Shown here: positions 20,341 to 64,000 of the stretch, piece by piece
How positions within the stretch are numbered: position 1 is the stretch's first letter
How the letters are laid out: each line of letters starts with the position of its first letter
Origin: Nymphaea colorata
Taxonomy: Eukaryota > Streptophyta > Magnoliopsida > Nymphaeales > Nymphaeaceae
Length of the DNA stretch: 64,000 bases
Assembly (NCBI RefSeq): GCF_008831285.2
Contig: NC_045144.1
Location: forward strand, 16,824,590-16,888,589
Direction of reading: 5' to 3'
Notes under the pieces: generated by a model
Database searches by the model: none
Seen by the model: the letters and a program-made list of their open reading frames with translations, nothing else
What the model was told of the DNA's origin: nothing
Made by a program: the position numbers and the translations under genes

Positions 20341-21441
20341 AGCAGCGGTTCTCCTTAATAAAACATTGAAAAAAAAAATCAGTTTGAAAATCAATGAGAA
20401 TGCTTGAAAATTATCTTTTAAAAATAAAACGCCGTTGATTTAAAAAAAGATTATCAAAATACTCAAAGCAGTACGTAGTTAAAACGGACATTATTGCTGT
20501 TCTACAATCGGCCGTCAAACTGGTTCAAATTGAAGCCAATTCAGGCGGTTAGTGTATAAATATACGTAGCGACTTCCCCAAGATACGTATTTTCAAGGCA
20601 AGGTGAGTTTTATAAGGAACCAAAGTTTTCCCAGTAGAAGATATGGTGTCTGTGAGCATATATGGTCATGAACAAGGTATGTTCTGCGTGCACAATCCCA
20701 AGGAGAAAGATTTCAAGCATTCTTTTATTGAAAGATATATTAAAACAGGCCAAGTGGTTACTTATAAAGACAAATGAATAGGCGATCCAGGTACGAGCGA
20801 ATCTATTCATCACTAGAGCATTCTCCTTCCAACATAGGATTTTGTCTGTCTAATTTTTTTTTTATATTATTTTATGCAAGTAACATAATAATATATTCAC
20901 CTTATTTGAGATTTAGTTCTTTTGAAGCAGGTTAGATATAGTTTCTGCCGATTTTTCTTGCTTGTCCTCTTATGTAGAGTGGAATATTAGGTCCGTGCCT
21001 TAGGCTAATAATCACTCCAAACTTTTGAAGCTCAAAATTCTAACTCCAGCATGCATTGGCACTACAGGCCACCCTAAACTAACCAAACTCTTCCTGACTC
21101 TATAGGGAAAGAATATGATTTTGGATATTATCCGGTGCCTTGATTATACTCTGAAACTCATTAGTCTGGTTAATTTGATCCGAAATTAGAGCCCAATTAG
21201 TCATCAAACTTTAGTCTGTTAATGAACGATCTTCTTACTGGTTCCAATCCCAATCTGATTCCTGGGGCATGTGGAAACTCCAGCTTGGCAGTGTATTGTT
21301 TATATAGGAATCCAAATCTAATTCCAAAAACACTAATAAGTCGTTTGATGGCCAAAAAAACACGCGGAACAGGACACACTTGTTTTATTTAGTTGAGTTT
21401 TCATTTGGACACAGTAAACAGAACGGACGCCTGGACAAAGG

Positions 21442-21449
21442 TATAAATT
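21442..21449 (+). promoter_or_regulatory. TATA-like box ahead of the SOSEKI fragment
   Basis: TATAAATT lies about 156 bp upstream of the SOSEKI ATG, inside the insertion. If the captured piece includes the original core promoter, the chimera could be transcribed. Confidence 0.4.
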
Positions 21450-21597
21450 ACTTCCTGTCTTAAACTTAGACTGTTCCGAGCTCGGAACAGGCTAGCACCA
21501 TCTCCTGCCCCGAGAACCCACCCCGGACCTCCTGAGTTGCCCTCTTGTCGAGCTCCTTCTCCCCCTTCTGAGTCTCCCTCTCGCCCCCGCGGAAGAA

Positions 21598-22015
21598 ATG
21601 GCGGCGAGAGCCAGAGGAGGAGGGGGAGGTAGGGTTGTTGAAATGCTGGCGAGGAGGAGCCAGGAGGCGAGCCCCGAGAGGATGATGGTCTGGACGGAGC
21701 AAAGGGCGCCGAGGCAGGAGCGCAGGGTTCTGGTGCTTTACTACCTCTGCAAGAACGGTCAGCTCGAGCATCTGCATTTCATGGAGGTTCCTCTGTATTC
21801 TGTCGAGGGGCTGTGCCTCAGAGGTGAGATTCTCCGAGAGCCTTCCGTCGTCCTTCCTATGCGCTGTTCGTTTCCGTGTTTTTCTCGTTTGTTTTTGTTG
21901 CTTTCGTTTCTTCCCGCTTCCTGAAATCGATCCTGGTTGTTCTTGTCCTTGCAGATGTGACGAGCCATCTAAACTTCCTCAGGGGAAAACGAATCACTTC
22001 TATGTACTCCAAGCG
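21598..22015 (+). pseudogene. SOSEKI-like (DUF966) 5' fragment: two exons of the DIX-like domain
   Basis: Exon 1 (21598-21823) encodes a Gly/Arg-rich leader and then VLVLYYLCKNGQLEHLHFME and VPLYSVEGLCLR, the start of the SOSEKI N-terminal DIX-like polymerising domain. Exon 2 (21955-22015) continues in phase with DVTSHLNFLRGKRITSMYSK and ends at a GT donor after SKR; the tryptophan-serine step usual in the family is missing. SOSEKI proteins mark cell corners and polarity in plants. No later exon encoding the rest of the domain or the C-terminal region is visible before HIPP-like sequence starts, so full function is not expected. A polymerising fragment cannot be excluded. Confidence 0.75.
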
Positions 22016-22424
22016 GTATGGATCGTCCATTTTCCCCTTTCTTCATCTTACTTTTTTTGCTTCTTTGTTTCCTTCTTCATCTTACTTTTTTTTGCTGAAG
22101 TTACTGTGTCTTACTCAACTTTAGCTCTGAATTTACTATTTTTTGTCGTATTTATTATACTTAGCATTTTTAGACTTTTCTTTACAGTTGCTTTGTTGAT
22201 CATTGTGTATCTTCTGATTCTTAGTCTGAACCATGTTTCTTTTTTTCAAATTTTAAGTTTTTATCCTTTAATGATTTAATTTTTCTAGAAAAGGGTGCAA
22301 ACATTTCTTACGAGTTTCGTATCTCTTTCCTTGAACAGCCGCAATTCCTGCCTACTTCATCATTGCTGACAAGACAATCCTATAGTGTGCATGGAGAAAT
22401 ACTCAGGCAAATTTTAACAATTCT

Positions 22425-22748
22425 TTGATTTCTAGCCACTCCACGCACTTGGCTTACTCTGTTTCGTCTGTTGATTTTCCCCATAGTGGTGGAGCTCATT
22501 TAGGTGGATATAGCTTCAATAATGCTGCTTACCAACAGCATCCAATGACCATGATGAACATCAATAGGTCGAACCAGAACCAGAACCAGATGCTGAATGA
22601 GAGATACATGCAGATGATGTACAACAGGTCTTCTCTCACCCCACTTGCTACCACTTCCTACTACAACTATCAGCCACAATCACAGACAGCAGAGTATGCT
22701 ACCTATTTGTTCAGTGATGATAACACCAGCAGTTGTGCCATCATGTGA
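22425..22748 (+). pseudogene. HIPP (heavy-metal-associated isoprenylated protein) 3' end with CaaX box
   Basis: Open to a TGA at 22746-22748. The C-terminus carries AEYATYLFSDDNTSSCAIM, the typical HIPP ending, with CAIM as a prenylation CaaX box. Upstream are an MMNINRSNQNQNQMLNERYM stretch and Tyr-rich sequence like the variable HIPP linker. The HMA domain and its CxxC are absent, and homology probably begins near 22490 just after a CCCCATAG acceptor-like site. The open frame starts with a non-family leader. It lies 0.4 kb after the SOSEKI exons in the same orientation, so a spliced chimera is conceivable, but frame continuity is not shown. Confidence 0.75.
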
Positions 22749-23075
22749 AGGGGAATGAAAAAAAAAGAAAAACAAAGAAATAAACATGATGTCTTTGTCT
22801 ACCGTGTTTAGAATGTAGGAGATAAGGCCTTATTAAGTGTTTCCCCTTTTTTTTTTTTATTTCAGTCCTTTGTTGAATGATCTACGGTGTTCTCGTTGGT
22901 TGCACAACATCTTGTTCGGCATAAGAGGATATGGTTCTGGCCGAATGTGTTGGAACGATATAGTTGGATGTTGCTGTAACAATGATGTGTTGCTGTAACA
23001 ATGATGTATCATGGACTAAGCTCTGTAATAAACTTCTTGCTGCTGGTTTTGTTTATGAAAATGGGATTTGCTTAT

Positions 23076-23106
<31 letters not shown>

Positions 23107-23350
23107 AAAACAAAATTGACTATAAAAAAACACAAACATTGGACAAAACAAAAACAGACACCGAAATGAACCGACAGAACGGATAAAACAAACATTTGCG
23201 AAACAAACGCTGGACAAGAGGAACTTAGTGTTTTGTTTCTAAAATCATCAAACGTTGGACAAAGAGCACCATTATCCATGAGGACATGACAGTAGTCTCA
23301 TGGACAGGATGTCCTATCCGTCGTGTCTCAATAAACAACAATCAAACGAC

Positions 23351-24200
23351 CTTTAAGAGTACGAAGTTTCTCAATGATTAGGTGTGAGTGAGAAAAGTAT
23401 TTTATCTTAGGTGAAAGAGTTGAATCTCATTAGTGGAACCGGTAATAATAACATCTAATTCAATTAGGTTGCATTTGATGGCCTTTGATCTATATAATGA
23501 TTGAAAAACTTAGAAATAAGGGTGGCAATGAATTGGGTACTCAATGGAGAGTTGGGTATCCAGCCCGCGATGGGCCAGGCTTTCGCACAATTGAACTGGC
23601 CCGATTAAAATATTTGCCAGATTGGGTTATCCCGAGTTGGGTATTGGGGGCCGACTTGACCGGATACATATATAGTCACATTACTTATTTTGTTTTCTCT
23701 CTCCTCCCCCTTTATGTGTGCGTTTGTGTGCTTGTGTGTGCCATCTTTAGCATATGACACCAGCAATTGTTGAACATGATATTTAAGCGGGCTAAACTTA
23801 GCCGCCGGCAATGACTTCGGGCCACTTCGAGCACCAGTTCGAGCACAACTTTGTCGAGCCCATGCCTACCCTTACTTGAAATGAAAGGATATGAATTTGA
23901 GAAGTGTCCAAAAAAGGTGGAGACTACCGAAGAAAAGACTCAAAAAATAAACAACAAAAAGGAAAGGTATGTGATCACGGATGAGGCTTCGTTTCCTTTT
24001 TTATCCATCTCCTTCATTTTCCATGATTTAAGCGTTTTAGATTTCGGGGAATGAGTAGGTGTTGCTGGTTTTTTACGCGTCTTGGTCCATTTAATGTTAC
24101 ATATTGATCGCTTTAATTTGTAATGTCTCGCCGGCCTCTGTCTTCTTCCTTTCTCAGTGCCTTCATCCAATGGAAGAACCAGAAAATTTATTAAGCGGCC
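23351..24200. other. Upstream region of X8 copy 3
   Basis: No gene. Positions 23351-23500 match 62710-62850. Positions 23518-23875 are a GGGCC-rich repeat related to 63260-63800. Positions 23880-24075 match 63810-64000 closely. A long minus-strand open frame at 23940-24170 is an artefact of this A/T-rich repeat. Confidence 0.65.
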
Positions 24201-25262: not shown

Positions 25263-25573
25263 TGTTAGCAGAATTACAGGGATTGCCTCCATTTCTTAGG
25301 AAGGTGAATCAAATCACGCCTTTCCTTTCTCACTATTTCCATATCATTTGTTTCCTTTTTTTCTTCAAAGGAACAGTTATGAGAATTCTGCGTGATTCTC
25401 TTACCATAATCTGGTATGGCCTGTACTCTATAAATTGAGGATTCATCCTCCCTATCCTGTATCAAAGAAAATAAAGGAGAGCTCCCTTTCTCGTGGACGT
25501 AGGCATTAGAATGCCGAACCACGTACATGCTTGAGTATTGCTGTGTTCCCAATCTTTATATCTCTTTTTAACA
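25263..25573 (+). repeat. 5' LTR of copia element 1
   Basis: 311 bp, from TGTTAGCAG to TTTTTAACA. It matches the 311-bp 3' LTR at 30570-30880 except for about eight substitutions counted by eye (about 2.6 percent). The 5' copy keeps TATAAATT near 25428, where the 3' copy has a changed base (TCTAAATT). Confidence 0.92.
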
Positions 25574-25585: not shown

Positions 25586-26360
25586 TAGGTTCTTGAAAGG
25601 GATTCTTGTCTGCTGTCTGCCGCTAGTTCACGTTTTCTGCTAGTTCATGTTTTCTGATTCCCAGCAACTCCATTCACCAGACGTGACGCCGGCAAGCAGA
25701 GTTTATTCGAAGGAAGTGACGCCGGCAAGCAGAGGAGGCACCTTCTTCCCATCTTCCAAAATTGGGGATTTCTTTGATCTGCCTTGATATCAAAGACGAA
25801 GATCACAAAAAAAAAAAAAGGGAACCCATCTTCCAAAATTGGGGATTCCTCTGTTCTGCTTTGCTATCAAAGAAGAGAGAAAAAAAAAAGAGGGAATATC
25901 CTGCGTCGGTTATTTTCCCACAGCAACATCACTCACCGTGAAGATCTGGCAAGCGGCATCGACTGCAAGTCGTGGATCCGGAGTACCTTGTTCCTCCGAG
26001 CGAGATTCCACGTTTCCCAGAGAACTCACCGTGAGATTTAGCAGACGCTTCATCGTCTGTCTCCCATCAACAGAACCAAGAGTGCCGCTCCTGCTCGCCT
26101 GGTGGAATCGCCGCCGGCATGCCTCGCCTGGTGGAATCGCCGCCGGCTCGCCTCACCCGGTGAAAGAGAAGTCGCCGCCGGCTCCTAACAGCGTACGGGA
26201 AAGCGTTCTGAGCGGTGGAGTGCCCTTCCTCATTTACCTCATTCTTACTCCGCCCCTTTCAGTTCTCCTTTTTTTTTTATTGTCGAGAGGAAGAAAGTTT
26301 CTTTCACCAACCGGAGCAGGGCATACTAAATTTGCTTTAGGGCGTATTAAATTTGCTTTC

Positions 26361-27242
26361 ATGGCCAGCATTCAAACTGGAGCTGCTCAAGGAGACGAAA
26401 ATTCGAGAGGATTAAAATCATCTGATCAACATGACAATACATTAAAAATCACATCTACTCTCCTCAACGGCGCAAATTATTTAAGTTGGGCCAGGGCTGC
26501 ACGTTTATTTTTGAGTGGGAGATCTAAAGCAGGATACATCAACAGAAAAATCCTCTGAGTGGGAGATCTAAGGCAAGATACATCAACAGAAAAATCCAGC
26601 AGCCTGCATCTAATGATCCTAGGTACGAGGAATGGGAGTCGGAAAATGATATGGTCATGTCCTGGTTAATAAATTCTATGGAACCGTCTATAGCTAACAT
26701 GTTCATGTATCAAGAAACGGCCCAAGGCATTTGGGAGTCGCTGAAAGAACTCTTCAGCGAGCAAAATAATCTTGCTCGTATATATCAAATTAAATGTGAG
26801 ATTGCTAATCTCACTGTGGGAAACAAAGATATTCAACTTTATATCGAGCGTCTTCACAGTCTCTTCGATGAACTTCTTCAATACCGACCGGCCACATCGG
26901 ATCCCGATATCTTCAAGCAACGGTTCGAGGAAGATAAAATTTTCAAAGTGTTAGCTGGTCTCACGGACGACTTTGAAACCTTGCGCAGTCAAATCTTGAA
27001 CTCTTCTCCTTTTCCAACATTCAACACTGTCTGCCAAATCATTCAAAGAGAAGTATCTAGGCGAAGAGTCATGAATTCATCCCACAAAGATGAAGTTGCA
27101 GGTTAAAACTCTGAGAAAATGGTGTATGTTTCTCGCACCCAAGATGGACAGAGACGTGGACGCAACAATATGAGACCACGCAGCAAGATGAAGTACACTC
27201 ATTGCAAAAAGATCGGTCACACCCGTGAACGATGCGTGAACG
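26361..27242 (+). pseudogene. Copia gag, broken
   Basis: Likely start at 26361 (MASIQTGAAQGDENSRG). An upstream open frame from 25839 overlaps the leader and is probably not used. A 44-bp tandem duplication (units start at 26513 and 26557) shifts the frame and gives a stop at 26556-26558. The gag core continues in another frame from about 26570 (SWLINSMEPSIANMFMYQET onward, UBN2-type). A TAA at 27104-27106 stops it again, and the zinc knuckle near 27190-27225 has lost its first cysteine (KYTHCKKIGHTRERC). An 11-bp duplication near 27225-27247 then shifts the frame into the protease region. Confidence 0.85.
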
Positions 27243-28071
27243 ATACTGGGAGATCATAGGGAGACCCGAGAAAGAGAAACCAACCACATTTTTGAAGGAG
27301 ATCAATTTGGCAAATTTGGTTAAAAAAGACGATTTGGAAAATTTTTTTCAAAGGTTCTCCAAGACCAATCTCGTCTCATCTCAACCTGTCAATGAAAGCT
27401 CTGAAGGTAAGACGATGACTTTTCTTTCTATGACCAAAAATAATACTTGGATTATTGACTCCGGAGCAACCGATCACATGACTAGTGAATCATCTACACT
27501 TAGTGAATTTGTCAAAGATTATAAACAGTCTGTATTCACTGCTGATGGGTCTTCCATAAACGTTGAAGGTGCTGGAAAAATGACGTTTTTAGGAAATAAA
27601 AAATCTACAGTTCTCCTTATTCCAAAACTTGCTGCAAATTTAATTTCAGTTAGTAAGATTACTCAAGCTCACAATTGTTTGGCATTTTTTTCTCCCAAGG
27701 ACGTGACGTTTCAGGAACTAAACTCGAAGAAAGTGATTGGTAAGGGTCATCTCCAAAGAGGATTATATGTTCTAGACGATGATTGTGTTAGCCTTCTCAC
27801 CAACAGCCAACAAAACTCTGAGTACCGGATATGGCATTCAAGATTGGGGCATATTTCAAATCGAAGCATCAAACAACTTATTCCTCACCTCACCACAGAA
27901 GATTGGGCATGTGACGCGTGTAAGTTCTCAAAATTCACTAGACTTCCTTTCCAATCATCTGTAGAAAGATCTTTAGAAATGTTTGATCTTATACACTCGG
28001 ATGTATGGGGCCGGCTCCTGAGATATCTCATACCAGATATAGATATTATGTTTCTTTTATTGATGATATGA
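27232..28071 (+). pseudogene. Copia protease and start of integrase, frame-broken
   Basis: Carries the aspartic protease motif WIIDSGATDHMT, then the GAG-pre-integrase zinc-binding region (WHSRLGHISN, with CDACKFSK). It reaches the first integrase aspartate in LIHSDVWG and then leaves frame near 28005-28015, where a run of four G suggests a one-base insertion. Confidence 0.85.
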
Positions 28072-30560
28072 CTCGTGTAACTTGGATTTATTTCCTCAAG
28101 AATAAAGGTGAGGTACCAAATATATTTGAAGAGTTCTATAATCTCATTTATACTCAGTACGAAATCAAGATAAAGAAACTTCGTTCCGATAATAGTGGAG
28201 AGTATGTTAATGACCATCTTAAAGAGTTTATGCGAAAAAAAGACATACAACCCCAATACACGTGTGCTAGAACCCCTCAACAAAATGGTGTTGTAGAGAG
28301 GAAAAATCATCAACGTCTAAACATCGCTCGTGCTCTCATGATACACATGACTGTACCACAAAAATATTGGAATGAAGCTATTGGTACCGACTGCTATATA
28401 TCCAATCGGATTCCTAATTCTAGCATTGATGGAAAGGTACCTCTTGAACTCCTCCTCAAACGGTTGATCTCCGTTAGACATCTCAAAGTCTTCGGGTGCA
28501 AGTGTTATGTCCATGTGCAGGAAAAAAACAGAAATAAATTTCAGAAATGTGTAGTTAAAGGGATTTTTATGGGATATTCCAGCAAAAAACATAGCTACCG
28601 ATGTCTTGATCCCATTACAAACAAGATGATAGTCTCACGAGATGTAAAGTTTTACGAGTCTGAAAGATACTTTGAAAATATACAACAAGATGAGAATTCT
28701 TCTCAGCCCGCCAATGAAATGAGCAATATCTCTTGCCCATTGACTGATATCTTTAATCAAGTACCTCACCGGCAAATCAATGAGGTAAACCAGCCCTTGC
28801 AAATTCAAGAAGTGACTGGTGAAAGAGGAAATCAAACTCCTACCTTAGACGACACTACTGTTCCTCAAGTCAAACATTCTTCTCGTCAATGCAGGCCTCC
28901 GGTCAGGTTAAGTGATTACTATACCTATCTTGCCACTGACAATATTCATTCTATTGAAAAGTATTTATCTTTTGACGGATTCTCAGAGCAGTATAAATCT
29001 TATGTTCATGCAACCTACAAACTCCAAGAGCCGAAAAAATTTGAAGAAGCCTGCAAAGATGTCAAATGGATAGATGCCATGAAAGAGGAACTTAAAGCTC
29101 ATGAAAAAAATCGTACGTGGGAATTTGTCCCTTGTCTAGAGAAAAAAAAATTGGTTGGATGCAAATGGATTTACAAAATTAAATTCAAAAGCAATGGAGA
29201 AGTAAAACGATACAAAGCGCGACTTGCTACAAAGGAATTCACTCAGACTGAGGGTATTGACTACACAGAGACTTTTGCCCCGATAGCAAAAATGAATACG
29301 GTAAGGGCTCTTCTTGCCATTGCTTCCATAAAACGATGGAGTCTCTTGCAACTTGACGTTAAAAACGCCTTTCTCCATGGCGAATTGAGCGAAGAAGTAT
29401 TCATGCATGTCCCAGAAGGCGTCACAAGTAAACCTGATCACGTGTGTAGACTAAAAAAGACTTTGTATGGTCTCAAACAATCGCCTCGCACGTGGTTCTC
29501 TCGTCTTAGCCTTGCTCTCAACAAGTATGGGTTCAAACAAAGTACAGCAGACTATACTATGTTCACAGCCACTCGAAATGATAAGGTAACTATCCTACTC
29601 GTATATGTTGATGATATTATACTTAATCGAGATGATACCGAGTACATACATATGATAAAGAAGTATCTCAACAAAGAATTTGAAATCAAGGATTTGGGAA
29701 CTCTTCGATGCTTTCTTGGAATTGAAGTTGCTCACCCCGACAAAGGAGTTTTTATTTGTCAACGGAAATACATCATTGATCTTCTCAAAAAAACCGGTTA
29801 TCTAGGCTCAAAAGCTGTAGAAACGCCTCTTGAGACAAATTGCAAGCTGAAGAAAGAAGAAGGCAACATTGTCGAAAATATAGAAAGTTTTCAGAAACTC
29901 GTCGGCAAACTTATATATGTTACAGTCACTCGTGCAAATATAACATACGCAGTCAGCCTTATCAGCCAATTTATGAATAGACCAAGGTCTAGCCATGTCG
30001 AGACAGCACAGAGAATACTCAGATACTTAAAGGGTAGTCCAGGCAAGGGCATTTTGATGAAACGAAGTCCTTCCCTTACCATATCTGGGTACTGTGACGC
30101 CGATTGGGCTGGAGACCCTAACGACCGGAGATCAACATCAGGATACTGCACATTTATTGGGGAAAATCTTGTAACGTGGAAAAGCAAGAAACAAACTGTT
30201 GTGGCGCGGTCAAGTGCTGAAGCCGAATACAGAGCTATGGCAGTGTGCACATGTGAACTCATTTGGATCAAAGCTCTTCTCAAGGATATGAATTTGGATA
30301 TAAGGGAATCGATGGAACTGAAGTGCGATAACATGGCAGCTATTCATATTGGGGCAAATCCTGCATTCCACGAGCGAACCAAGCGTATTGAAGTCGACTG
30401 TCATTTTGTTCGGAAAAAAATTCAGGATCACACTATTTGTACTTCACATGTTAGAAGTGAGAAACAGTTGGCTGACGTCTTCACCAAGAGTCTGGGAAAA
30501 GAAAGGCATAAGTATATGATCGACAAGTTGGGACAGATTGATATTTGTCTACCAACTTGA
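28005..30560 (+). pseudogene. Copia integrase, reverse transcriptase and RNase H
   Basis: An 851-codon open frame. Integrase residues are RSDNSGEY and NGVVERK; the first catalytic aspartate lies in the preceding frame. Reverse transcriptase begins near WIDAMKEELKAHEKN, with ARLATKEFTQTEGIDYTETF, LDVKNAFLHGEL and the catalytic LLVYVDDIIL. RNase H has GYCDADWAGDPNDRRSTSGY and SSAEAEYRAMA. It ends nine bases before the 3' LTR, at the polypurine tract. The long intact frame agrees with low LTR divergence, but the element as a whole is defective. Confidence 0.9.
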
Positions 30561-30569: not shown

Positions 30570-30880
30570 TGTTAGCAGAATTACAGGGATTGCTTCCATT
30601 TCTTAGGAAGGTGAATCAAATCACGCATTTCCTTTCTCACTATTTATATATCATTCGTTTCCTTTTTTTCTTCAAAGGAACAGTTATGAGAATTCTGCGT
30701 GATTCTCTTACCATAATCTGGTATGGCCTGTACTCTCTAAATTGAGGATTCATCCTCCCTATCCTGTATCAAAGAAAATAAAGGAGAGCTCCCTTTCTCG
30801 TGGACGTAGGCATTAGAATGCCGAACCACGTACATGCTTGAGTATTGCTGTGTTCCCTTTCTTTATATCTCTTTTTAACA
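30570..30880 (+). repeat. 3' LTR of copia element 1
   Basis: 311 bp, from TGTTAGCAG to TTTTTAACA, followed by the right target duplication GCCTG and then the resumed X8 exon (CTGGCTTCAGG). Confidence 0.92.
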
Positions 30881-43819: not shown

Positions 43820-44290
43820 CTAAGCGTAGCCACACATGCCATATAGGCAGGAGGACCCCTTACGGCACTTGTTCATGCATCTCCCACAGTTCTTTCTGTC
43901 GAACGCCAGATTCACGCACCTGCCCTTGCAGCACGTCTTAGTGAACCTGCACCTCCTCCCACATTTGCCGCAGTTGAGGCGATCGGTCTTCCGATCCACG
44001 CACTTCTTGTTGCAGCAGTCAGGGCCAGGGCTTCCCTTCAGTTTGCAGAACTTCCGGTTTTTGTCGCACCTCTGCGGCTTCCAGGATCTGGCCAGGTACC
44101 GGCGCAGTCCGAGCGACGGCAGGTCGCCAGAGTAAGGCTCCTCCTCGGCGGTGGGGTCCTCAATGCCGCCAACTACACCTTCCTCTGGTTCCTCGTGTTC
44201 TTCGGTTGCGGCTGGGAGTGTCGTGGATGCGACCAGCAAAATGAGAGCCCCGATGACTGCTGCTGTTAGGAGTAACCGTGGTACGGCCAT
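43820..44290 (-). CDS. STIG1-like cysteine-rich secreted protein, copy A
   Basis: An intronless frame of 156 residues, as usual for STIG1 genes. A signal peptide (MAVPRLLLTAAVIGALILLV) is followed by an acidic Glu/Pro-rich linker, RRYLARSW, and the C-terminal STIG1 domain from about residue 75 with 16 cysteines: CDKNRKFC, DCCNKKC, NCGKCGRRC, TCCKGRC, NCGRCMNKC and a final YGMCGYA, the normal family ending. STIG1 proteins are secreted, known from stigma exudate and reported to signal to pollen receptor kinases; whether this copy does so is inferred. A TATA box lies at 44384-44391 on the minus strand. It is the best preserved of the three STIG1 copies here. Confidence 0.93.
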   Translation of the reverse strand: MAVPRLLLTAAVIGALILLVASTTLPAATEEHEEPEEGVVGGIEDPTAEEEPYSGDLPSLGLRRYLARSWKPQRCDKNRKFCKLKGSPGPDCCNKKCVDRKTDRLNCGKCGRRCRFTKTCCKGRCVNLAFDRKNCGRCMNKCRKGSSCLYGMCGYA

Positions 44291-47761: not shown

Positions 47762-48175
47762 TCACTTCCACAAAGCTTTGCATCCTTGATGATGACTATA
47801 CGGAGGGACGGAGTTACAAATTTTTTGTTGCAAAGGCTCGCACTTGTTCCCACACTTACCGCAGTTGAGGCTGTCAGTTTTGAGGTCCACGCACTTCTTC
47901 TCGCAACAGTGATCAGGGCCACCCTTTGTTGATGATCCGCAGATGCTTGGGTCCTTATCACACGTCAATTCTTTAGATTTAGCGAGAAACCGACGAATGG
48001 TAGGCACCGGTAGGCGGCCGGAGTCCGGCTTGCCGTCGCCGGCAGCTGAAGCTTCCTCAGCAGGCAGTTGATTGGGTTCATCTGCCTCATTTGGCAGCGG
48101 CGACGGCGCCAATGTTGTGATGATGATGAGAATGACTATGATGGAAAATGTTAGTAGTAACCTTGGTGTTGCCAT
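47762..48175 (-). pseudogene. STIG1-like protein, copy B, with degenerate C-terminus
   Basis: The start at 48175 (MATPRLLLTF) is chosen because a TATATAAA box lies at 48302-48309 and because STIG1-A starts with the same MAxPRLLLT pattern; the frame is open further upstream to 48370 but that would run through the promoter. It gives 137 residues: signal peptide, acidic linker, RRFLAKS, then CDKDPSIC, HCCEKKC and NCGKCGNKC. After that the family's second cysteine block is missing and replaced by unrelated residues ending GCKALWK, leaving 10 cysteines instead of 16. A frameshift or deletion in the second half is likely. Function is doubtful. Confidence 0.8.
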
Positions 48176-48301
48176 GGTTATAGCGGTGGCGGCGCCGGTG
48201 GCAGTTTCAGCCAAAGTGGTGGCCGTGATGCTGATAAGAGCTTCCAATGTATGAAGCAAATTAAGGTGGGCAGAGTGGGGAAGGAATGAGAATGGTGTTG
48301 G

Positions 48302-48309
48302 TTTATATA
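48302..48309 (-). promoter_or_regulatory. TATA box of STIG1-B
   Basis: TATATAAA on the minus strand. The GGTGTTGG word beside it aligns with GATGTTGG beside the TATA boxes of STIG1-A and C; homology with their upstream regions stops immediately beyond the TATA box. Confidence 0.65.
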
Positions 48310-48965
48310 TGCAAGTGGAGGGATGCAGTGTTAATGGGGATGGCATTGGACTTACACTGGACTTGGACATGCATTGGTATCAGTGACCTTGAATCACGTA
48401 AAAGTAATTTGATTATCGTTAGTCATGTTTTGATGTGTTAAGTAGCTCATGACAAGACTGTTTCTGTAGCAAAATACATAGCATCATCGGATTTGGGTCT
48501 AGTTCATGAAAATCTCATACCAAAAGTTCATTATTATTTAACTGCAAAATTATCATCATTTAAATTTCAAATAGCAAACATCTACAACATAGCCCATGTA
48601 TACATTATCCTTCATCTAAATTTCAAACAACAAACATTTTGGTTCCTTTTCTTTTTTCTTTTTGAATTCAGTTAGAGATTTACTTCCATTGACGCAAATA
48701 TCACTGTTTTAAGGGAAAAAATGAAAAAAAAAAGTGACCACTAACTGCATATCATAGTTGGTAGGTTGCATAGAAAGGTATTATTAGTTTGATTCATGTA
48801 TCTGTTACTTTAAAAATGTGATTGCATAGAAAGGTATTATTAGTTTGATTCCTATAGGCCTTACTTTAAAAATGTGATACTCTGTTTGACCTGTGTGTCG
48901 TACCTTACCTAAGTCTTGAAACAGTACATAACCCAGGAGCAGGGGAAAAAAGAAGAACCTTCAAA

Positions 48966-53806: not shown

Positions 53807-54331
53807 TCAAGAAGTTGGTTCTTGCAGCAGTGCTTCGTAAACAACACAGCTGCAAGCACTAAGGGTATAGCCACACATGCCGTAGATACAGTAGGACCCC
53901 TTACGGCAATTGTTCCCGCATCTCCCGCAGTTCTCTCTATCGAACGCCAGATTCACGCACCTTCCCTTGCAGCACGTCTCCGTGAACCTGCACCTCCTCC
54001 CGCAGTTGCCGCAGTTGAAGCGATCGGTCTTCCAATCCACGCACTTCTTTTTGCAGCAGTCAGGGCCAGGGCTCCCCTTCAGTTTGCAGATCTTCGGTTT
54101 TTTGTCGCACGTATGCGGCTTCCAGGACCTGGCCAGGTACCGGCGGATTCTGAGCGACGGCAGGTCACCGGAGTAAGGCTCCACCTCGGCGGTAGGGTCC
54201 TCACTGGCACCAACTTCACCTTCTTCTGGTTCCTCGTGTTCTTCGGCTACTACTGGGAGTGTCGTGGATGCGACCAGCAAAATGAGAGCGCCGATGACTG
54301 CTGCTGTTTGGAGTAACCATGGTGCGGCCAT
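53807..54331 (-). CDS. STIG1-like cysteine-rich secreted protein, copy C, with C-terminal extension
   Basis: An intronless frame of 174 residues, nearly identical to copy A up to MCGY: signal peptide (MAAPWLLQTAAVIGALILLV), acidic linker, RRYLARSW, and the 16-cysteine STIG1 domain (CDKKPKIC, DCCKKKC, NCGNCGRRC, TCCKGRC, NCGRCGNNC, YGMCGY). Copy A stops one codon later; copy C has two extra bases there, so it reads on for about 18 residues (TLSACSCVVYEALLQEPTS) that correspond to copy A's 3' UTR. The extension adds two cysteines, which could disturb disulphide pairing. TATA box at 54434-54441. Role as for other STIG1 proteins, by inference. Confidence 0.9.
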   Translation of the reverse strand: MAAPWLLQTAAVIGALILLVASTTLPVVAEEHEEPEEGEVGASEDPTAEVEPYSGDLPSLRIRRYLARSWKPHTCDKKPKICKLKGSPGPDCCKKKCVDWKTDRFNCGNCGRRCRFTETCCKGRCVNLAFDRENCGRCGNNCRKGSYCIYGMCGYTLSACSCVVYEALLQEPTS

Positions 54332-61797: not shown

Positions 61798-61799
61798 CA

Positions 61800-64000
61800 G
61801 CGGTTCCTGAGTAAAACATTAAAAAAAAACGTCAGTTTGAAAATCAATGAGAATACGTGAAAATTATCTGTTAAAAAATAAAAACAGCATTGATTTAAAA
61901 AAGATTATCAAAATATTCAAAGCAGTACGTAGTTAAAACAGACATTATTACTGTTCTACAATCGGGCATCAAACTGGTTCGGTTGAAGCCAATTCAGTCG
62001 CTGATTCTGAAGACTGTAGCGCTTAGTGTATAAATATACGTAGGGACTTCCCCAAGATACATGTTTTCAAGGCAAGGTGAGTTTTATGAGGAACCAAAAG
62101 TTTCCTACTAGAACATTGGTCTCTGATCATATATGGTCATGAACAAGGTATGTTCTGCGTGCACAATCCCACAGAGAAATTTTTCAACCATTCTTTTACT
62201 GAAAGATAATTATTAAAACAGGTCAAGTGGTTACATATAAGGACATATGAATAGGTGATCCAGGTACGAGCAAATCTATTCATCAATAGGGCATTCTCCT
62301 TCCAAGATAGGATCCTTTCTGTCAATTTTTTTTTAAATTATTGTATGCGAGTAACATAATAATATATTCACCTTATTTGAGATTTAGTTCTTTTGAAGCT
62401 GGTTAGATATTGTTTCTGCCGATTTGTCTTCCTTGTCCTCTTATGTAGAGTGGAATATTATGTTCGTGCCTTTAGCTAATAATCACTCTTCCTGACTCTA
62501 CAGGTCAAAAATATGATTTTGGATATTATCCGGTGCCTTGATTATATTCTGAAAGAAATAAGCCTGGTTAATTTGATCAGGAATTAGTCATCAAACTTGA
62601 GTCCGTTAATGAATCATCTTCTTACTAGTTCCAATCCCTATCTGATTCCTGGGGCATTTGAAAACTCCAACTGCTGTGTATTGTTTATATAGGAATCCAA
62701 ATCAAATACCAGGAACGCTTGGAGTATGAAGTATCTCAATGATTGGATGTGAGTAGGAAAAGTATTCTATCGTACTTCTTGGTGAAAGAGTTGTATCTCA
62801 TTAGTAACGTATAATTCAGTAAGGTTGTGTTTGATAGCCTTAGATATACATAAAAAGGCGGTTGGATTTTTTGGGGGGGGGGGGGGGGGGGGGTGGGGTG
62901 GTTGGTGGTGGCCTTAAATCGATTGATCTAAGACCCTGGAATTTTAGATCACTATGGATTTCAGTTCTGTGGCGAAACAATCACAACCTTATGATCCACT
63001 TTTATAAAAATCTAAGAATAGAATAAGAAACAAAGAAAATATCTTCTTATATATAGTTCAGAAATTGTGGATATCCAAGCTTTTGAATGTTCTTAAATTC
63101 ATAAACATTTTTTAAAGTCTTTTATGTTGATTCCACAGAGACAACGTGAGGCCAAGCAATTAATACTTTAATGGAGGGTGGGAAATGACTAAAATACCCT
63201 TGTTAGGATTAGGGCTTTCACCAGGAAAGTGAAATAATGATTAAAAAAATTGAAAATAAGAGTGGGCAATGGACTGGAAACTCAATAGGTAGTTGGGTAC
63301 CCGGCCGTGATGGGGGCTTGGGCTGGCTATTAGACACTTGACCAGCGTAATTAAAAAAATTCACGAGATTGGGTTGACTCCAATTGGTTATTAGGAGGCA
63401 GACTTGGGCGGATATATATATATATATATATGTGTGTCTGTTTTGCATATGACACTAGCGATCCTTTCACTTAGAAACTCTAGGTGCTTTGCTGATGCAC
63501 TCCCTTGGAAACTCTTTGTGTCACTAATAATACCCTTAGAAACTCTTGGCACATCGCTATATGTGTCACCAATAATACCCTTAGAAACTCTTGGCACATC
63601 CCTATGTGTTTTTAAAATACTAAAATATAAAATATTAAGGGTTTCAAGACACCCAACAACAGACACCCGATGGGTATATTATTGACAGACAGACCGGACC
63701 CGATAACTAAGCGGGCTAGGCTTGTGCCGCCGGCAAGGACTTCGAGCCAGCCTGAGCTTGGCTTTGTCGAGCCTTGGGCTGGCCAGACACAGCCCGATGT
63801 CCAGCCTTATTTGGAAAGAAACTATATGAATTTAAGAAGTGTAAAAAAAAAATTGAGATTACCCAAGAAAAGACAAAAAAAAACAACACAAAGAAAATGG
63901 AATGTGATCACGGATGAGACTTCGTTTCCTTTTTTATCCATGTCCTTCATTTCCATGATTTAAGCGTTGCAGATTTCGGGGAATGAGTAGGTATTGCTGG
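61800..64000. repeat. Duplicate of the upstream region of X8 copy 3 (start of X8 unit 5)
   Basis: Positions 61800-62700 match 20340-21330, 62710-62850 match 23355-23500, and 63810-64000 match 23880-24075, in the same order and orientation. The 2.0-kb SOSEKI/HIPP insertion is absent. No X8 exon lies inside the window. A poly-G run at 62873-62893 is unique to this copy. Confidence 0.8.
62873..62893 (+). repeat. Poly-G run of 21 bases
   Basis: An uninterrupted G tract followed by TGGGGTGGTTGGTGGTGG, in otherwise AT-rich DNA. It could fold as a G-quadruplex; the exact length may be uncertain because homopolymers are error-prone in sequencing. Confidence 0.85.

Follow-up and report, generated by a model that had tools for sequence, protein, structure and literature searches.

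Results

The window analysed here spans 64,000 nucleotides of the Nymphaea colorata genome (C7:16824590-16888589), and the genome-wide searches described below were run on that same genome of 408 Mb. Positions 21337-23353 of the window (2017 bp, plus strand; C7:16845926-16847942) hold a non-autonomous transposon of PIF/Harbinger type. Its limits were drawn from end patterns, from alignment with an empty site and from the duplications found at paired ends. The element carries pieces of three host genes, SOSEKI, ENOD93 and HIPP, all oriented as the TATAAAT motif in its left end. Elsewhere in the window are three STIG1-like ORFs on the minus strand (43820-44290, 47762-48370 and 53807-54331), located within repeated blocks at about 32-61 kb; the first matches the Pfam model Stig1 (5.1e-28), and the other two were assigned by resemblance. 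Copia-like retrotransposon ORFs, recognized by eye, occupy 25839-30560 and are flanked by two 311-bp stretches with 97% identity (25263-25573 and 30570-30880). A simple repeat at 401-526, about 120 bp long, is self-complementary.

The left terminal inverted repeat (21337-21349, plus strand) contains the core GTCGTTTGAT at 21340-21349, and the reverse complement of this core forms the right inverted end at 23341-23350. The imperfect inverted ends described in a sequence-only reading of the window are therefore real. In the genome-wide family the inverted ends are 3 bp (GAG) longer, and the limits of the element were accordingly set at 21337 and 23353. The left end of the window element opens with TAA where family members have GAG, a detail that counts against the explanation we favor. 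The target-site duplication, TAA, lies at 21334-21336, in a C-TWA-G context (flank alignment and paired-end comparison), and at 23354-23356 (flank alignment). Comparison of the window with itself paired 20343-21334 with 61798-62719 and 23357-23497 with 62722-62853, and the element-free copy has C-TTG-G at the empty site (62719-62721). Once the element and one TAA are taken out, the flanks align with the empty copy gap-free at the junction (AACAC-TAA-GAGTACG versus AACGC-TTG-GAGTATG). This confirms the earlier claim that the duplicated flanks are continuous and lack the 2.0-kb insert. A search for a transposase inside 21337-23353 found no ORF of at least 150 aa with such content, and the element is for that reason classed as non-autonomous.

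The right end of the transposon (23138-23353, plus strand) is common to many family members, including a transposase-bearing element on C9. The left end and leader (21337-21590, plus strand) are similar to those of family members without SOSEKI sequence, over most of the length in an element on C1 (L018) and over the first part in L065 and others, and the leader therefore belongs to the transposon rather than to the captured gene. Comparison of family left ends also identified the TATAAAT motif (21442-21448, plus strand), which lies 95-124 bp from the end in 28 of the 30 left ends examined and was present in 21 of 600 random stretches; loci L064 and L067 were left out of the comparisons.

The SOSEKI piece begins about 7 bp ahead of the ATG and runs some 200 bp into intron 2, so that similarity to the host gene starts just before the start codon (window 21591-21598). 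It comprises exon 1 from the ATG to the donor (21598-21823), exon 2 (21955-22015), which is followed by a GT donor at 22016 and lacks three codons (WSS) of the host gene on C5, and the first part of intron 2 (22016-22233, with similarity to C5 up to about 22220), all on the plus strand. Translated, 21598-21822 matches the Pfam SOK model (PF06136) at 1.8e-9, and exon 1, exon 2 and the HIPP tail spliced together match it at 4.1e-18. The donor is located at C5:3996435 and shares 86% DNA identity with the piece; this intact parent matches SOK at 1.1e-49 over positions 1-89, whereas the SOSEKI part of the window covers profile positions 2-52 of 89, which leaves the DIX-like domain incomplete. A SOSEKI-like sequence on C12 was rejected as the source, with 71% identity to the window versus 86% for C5, and a processed retrocopy was rejected because SOSEKI intron 1 is kept.

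Behind the SOSEKI piece lies the 3′ part of an ENOD93 gene (22234-22486, plus strand), made up of the end of an intron, the last exon and 3′ flank. It has its acceptor AG at 22337-22338 and an in-frame TAG, read by eye, at 22383-22385. The parent is on C6 at about 7.741 Mb, where the exons, joined by eye, match ENOD93 at 2.1e-33; the captured piece is 85% identical. The ENOD93 exon alone gave no match among PDB sequences. The sequence-only reading had described two host gene pieces in the same orientation and had treated the stretch after 22016 as a single SOSEKI intron. Both of its pieces were found, but it overlooked ENOD93, which interrupts the supposed intron and makes the cargo three.

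The coding part of the HIPP tail (22487-22748, plus strand) is open to its stop, with the translation GGAHLGGYSF...SSCAIM, the last four residues being encoded at 22734-22745. It is followed by HIPP 3′ flank, partly replaced (22749-23101, plus strand). The tail had no match above cut-off in Pfam, and matches to cytokine-receptor models, which lay below the cut-offs, were disregarded. The same tail closes a host gene on C11 that is intact and encodes an HMA domain (HMA 4.4e-14), and the donor at C11:16280431 shows 90% DNA identity across 441 bp, then 78%. Pfam analysis of the spliced ORF found no HMA domain; the CaaX is present.

Genome-wide, the left-end pattern, with one mismatch allowed, gave 96 matches and the right-end pattern 171, while the reversed patterns that served as controls gave 0. 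As a tally of left ends, 96 is a slight overestimate, since a few matches are right ends on the opposite strand: at least those at C1:18656581 and C1:36644699 coincide with right-pattern matches of opposite strand, and a further two, on C13, also look like right ends. When same-strand ends no more than 15 kb apart were paired, using all 96 left matches and the 100 listed of the 171 right matches, at least 27 pairs were obtained, with lengths of 1.7-12.5 kb. The variable base within CTNAG was identical on both sides (A or T) in 26 of 27 pairs, the discordant one being C4:11657635. Four more pairs (L061, L063 and one each on C13 and C12) agree on the duplication by eye. The variable base is thus a direct repeat, not to be expected from a longer inverted repeat, and it therefore belongs to a target duplication, TTA or TAA, flanked as C-TWA-G.

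Matches to the transposase model DDE_Tnp_4 (150 scored of 307 candidates) were correctly stranded and spaced relative to family ends in at least 11 cases, of which 8 are firm and three were placed by distances of more than 10 kb alone; the count is a lower bound, as it covers 150 of the 307 candidates and 99 of the 171 right-pattern matches. With strands flipped the count was 0, and random positions gave a mean of 0.2 and a maximum of 2. A 6.9-kb relative on C9 (C9:5608081-5615022) contains Myb_DNA-bind_3 (5.1e-11) and DDE_Tnp_4 (2.9e-16) between ends similar to those of the window element (left 77% over 61 bp, right 79% over 211 bp), and in this sole element examined for it, a Myb/SANT-like ORF does accompany the transposase. 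The C9 element fits the PIF/Harbinger layout, a transposase and a Myb/SANT-like ORF within such ends, outlined in part of PMC6327408. Two family members of about 4 kb, L060 and L061 (C14:5083900-5088700 and C1:21941800-21946900), have in common an antisense ORF of 145-146 aa that had no match in Pfam and is perhaps another captured gene. On C2 (27691866-27703522), a DDE_Tnp_4 match comes after a family leader and a copy of ENOD93 on one strand within 12 kb; together they may form an element with a transposase and a captured exon as well.

Another copy, in which both ends and the full set of three pieces are present, lies at C6:22508497-22510734; it shows no clear target duplication. The SOSEKI-ENOD93 junction is shared by the elements on C7 (the window), C6, C13 and C4, of which those on C13 and C4 are partial SOSEKI relatives. 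The C13 sibling has TAA on both sides, and its HIPP piece is 95% identical to that of the window over 196 bp. In the elements on C12 (TTA on both sides) and C14, the ENOD93 and HIPP pieces are preceded by a different 5′ piece. Relatives of that piece occur on C5, C8 and C9, and, as tested in the C14 element, it has no match in Pfam. The C14 element retains only 41 bp of ENOD93, and the HIPP tail of the C12 element contains stops. In the C1 element the leader adjoins ENOD93, the two matches being separated by about 15 bp. For the C4 and C1 elements, no right end was found in the DNA examined at the mismatch limit used. The joint between ENOD93 and HIPP is about 190 bp longer in C12 than in the window and C6, and the shorter form suggests that sequence was lost internally at a later stage, perhaps at a short common GTG. 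The HIPP-bearing C12 element (L014:1130-4423, about 4126.6-4129.9 kb) is itself inserted antisense within the first exon of another SOSEKI-like sequence, which has diverged and now reads through stops. Its position there and the SOSEKI cargo of the window may be a coincidence or a hint of preference.

Discussion

Our analysis has shown that the locus has the ends, target duplication and empty site of a transposon insertion, and that its cargo has parents elsewhere in the genome and junctions in common with sibling elements. The proposal that a non-autonomous DNA transposon had captured host genes, made without recognition of the transposon class, is well founded, given the many end copies, the intact parents elsewhere, the second two-ended copy, the empty site and the target duplication. 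That proposal had been held open to doubt if neither parents nor further copies of the ends turned up; the parents lie on C5, C6 and C11, and the ends gave the 96 and 171 matches described above. We consider it very probable that the element is a Pack-PIF, that is, a PIF/Harbinger non-autonomous transposon whose SOSEKI, ENOD93 and HIPP cargo is aligned with its own TATA motif and leader, which was mobilised in trans and built up stepwise, and which gives mostly truncated products without selected function. Mobilisation would be due to a related transposase. Any transcripts would start at the TATA motif of the element and yield mostly truncated SOSEKI fragments, and the in-frame CaaX fusion may be a minor product without selected function.

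The junctions of the few copies available suggest that the cargo was built stepwise, and the simplest order would place ENOD93 behind the leader, HIPP behind ENOD93, and then SOSEKI or another 5′ piece in front. Such growth may have proceeded by re-mobilisation of neighboring or recombined elements together with internal deletion. A model in which neighboring insertions are mobilised as one unit is presented in part of PMC8903248 and fits the window family; no intermediates of this model were seen among the family copies compared.

The cargo could also be a young functional chimeric gene, in which the promoter of the element would drive a SOSEKI-HIPP transcript whose splice joins 22016 to 22486 (or 22435) and which encodes a prenylated SOSEKI fragment acting at the membrane. 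Splicing from 22016 to 22486 does produce an in-frame SOSEKI-HIPP ORF of 182 aa that ends in CAIM and has GT-AG at all its junctions, and use of 22435 gives 199 aa in frame with the CaaX kept. The acceptor had been expected near 22490; its AG lies precisely at 22485-22486, and the sequence CCCCATAG within the ENOD93 piece is the acceptor that would yield the fusion. The presence of TATAAAT in nearly all left ends compared (28 of 30) and the head residues H, H and F, retained as EHLHF (by eye), also speak for a functional gene. However, of nine acceptors between 22050 and 22500 that passed our filter (AG after C or T, at least 12 of 20 pyrimidines upstream), seven lead to early stops and to products of 105-133 aa without CaaX, among them the true ENOD93 acceptor at 22338, which shifts the frame. 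Further, the SOK model is covered only in the positions given above and the WSS codons are absent. According to the section of PMC7042713 that describes the AtSOK4 polymer interface, H34, H36 and F37 pair with W83, Y84 and D85, among others; the latter three have their counterpart in the GFVWHD of the C5 gene (by eye on the alignment) and fall in exon 3, which was not captured. In the C6 copy, a 10-bp deletion ahead of the CaaX destroys it, and the frame ends in other sequence. The dN/dS values, which rest on 3 to 19 changes, are 0.83 (window-C5), 0.61 (window-C6) and 0.32 (C6-C5) for SOSEKI, those of the window at most hinting against function, and 0.37 (window-C11) and 0.47 (C6-C11) for HIPP; with so few changes, mild constraint is possible on both parts. 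Between the window and C6, HIPP has 0 synonymous and 3 nonsynonymous changes. The two copies diverge by 22% in the left end, 6.2% in SOSEKI exon 1, 4.3% in ENOD93, 1.2% in the HIPP coding part, 13.9% in the 3′ flank (largely from one replaced stretch, the near part being almost identical) and 9.9% in the right end. Since the flank next to HIPP is also nearly identical, selection is no likelier an explanation than exchange between the copies. The idea that splicing would unite a polarity-polymerising SOSEKI segment with a CaaX membrane anchor is weak: the segment itself is about half of a DIX-like domain, with no tail interface and three codons missing, and a frame-shifting ENOD93 acceptor intervenes. 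On these sequence features, a working membrane-anchored polarity chimera from the joined gene is unlikely, and we see very little chance that the full scenario of a young functional gene is correct. Even less probable is a promoter-carrying gene-assembler family, with a conserved TATA motif and leader directly before the SOSEKI ATG and pieces from four or more donors combined in interchangeable order, in which an expressed, prenylated half-SOSEKI with the head and without the tail would cap or mislocalise SOSEKI polymers.

Other classes of transposon must also be weighed, as MULEs and Helitrons likewise carry gene fragments (PMC13317346, in the part concerned with capture). Nevertheless, the duplication here is 3 bp, TWA, and neither 8-11 bp nor none, and relatives with such ends contain DDE_Tnp_4, one of them with a Myb/SANT-like ORF as well. 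We rejected hAT, MULE and CACTA elements on the TWA duplication and Helitrons on the presence of inverted ends and a duplication, and we regard capture by a Pack-MULE, Pack-hAT or Helitron as extremely unlikely. That the region is an old segmental duplication would agree with an ordinary host locus or a tandem-duplication product without any transposon. With the parents on C5, C6 and C11, none of them nearby, and the family ends dispersed genome-wide, this origin is next to impossible.

Pack-MULEs and Pack-CACTA elements have target duplications other than those of the Pack-PIF family described here. Rice Pack-MULEs and Arabidopsis Pack-CACTA, as treated in part of PMC13317346, resemble it in the capture of gene fragments by non-autonomous transposons with terminal inverted repeats, but they belong to other superfamilies. 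Pack-PIF elements are a described class, with examples in maize and rice in the sections of PMC8903248 that concern them. Maize Zm-Pack-PIF cluster 18 from that source is alike in its PIF ends, its TTA/TAA duplication, the presence of more than one host gene per family and its stepwise growth. Its pieces are 163 and 58 bp long, whereas the window has three of about 0.25-0.65 kb each, and the window element differs further in its intron parts, splice sites, open fusion frame and the differing 5′ pieces among siblings. PePIF1, DcMaster, Harbinger and other PIF relatives covered in part of PMC6327408 have a 3-bp target-site duplication, terminal inverted repeats like GGGYCYGTTTGGGGCAGCT or GGTCCTGTTTG..., a transposase and, in several cases, ORF1. 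The C9 relative fits this description; in contrast, the window element is without a transposase, and the end of its family is GAGGTCGTTTGATGGCCA.

With SOSEKI proteins, the captured sequence shares the N-terminal DIX-like part, at 86% DNA identity to the C5 gene, but it lacks the second half of the domain, the tail interface and the remaining protein. With HIPP proteins it shares the C-terminal tail with its CaaX, CAIM, but not the HMA domain. To our knowledge, there is no earlier report of a SOSEKI-ENOD93-HIPP element. A literature search on SOSEKI, HIPP and transposable elements, with ENOD93 outside its scope, gave no mention of SOSEKI among the matches listed, which is weak evidence of absence.

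In conclusion, this is a new and unusually well documented Pack-PIF family. One family documents the parents, junctions, siblings and empty site for a three-gene cargo that lies in one direction behind the promoter-like end of the transposon. The 5′ piece varies between siblings, and it becomes testable in what order and by what mechanism the pieces were captured step by step.
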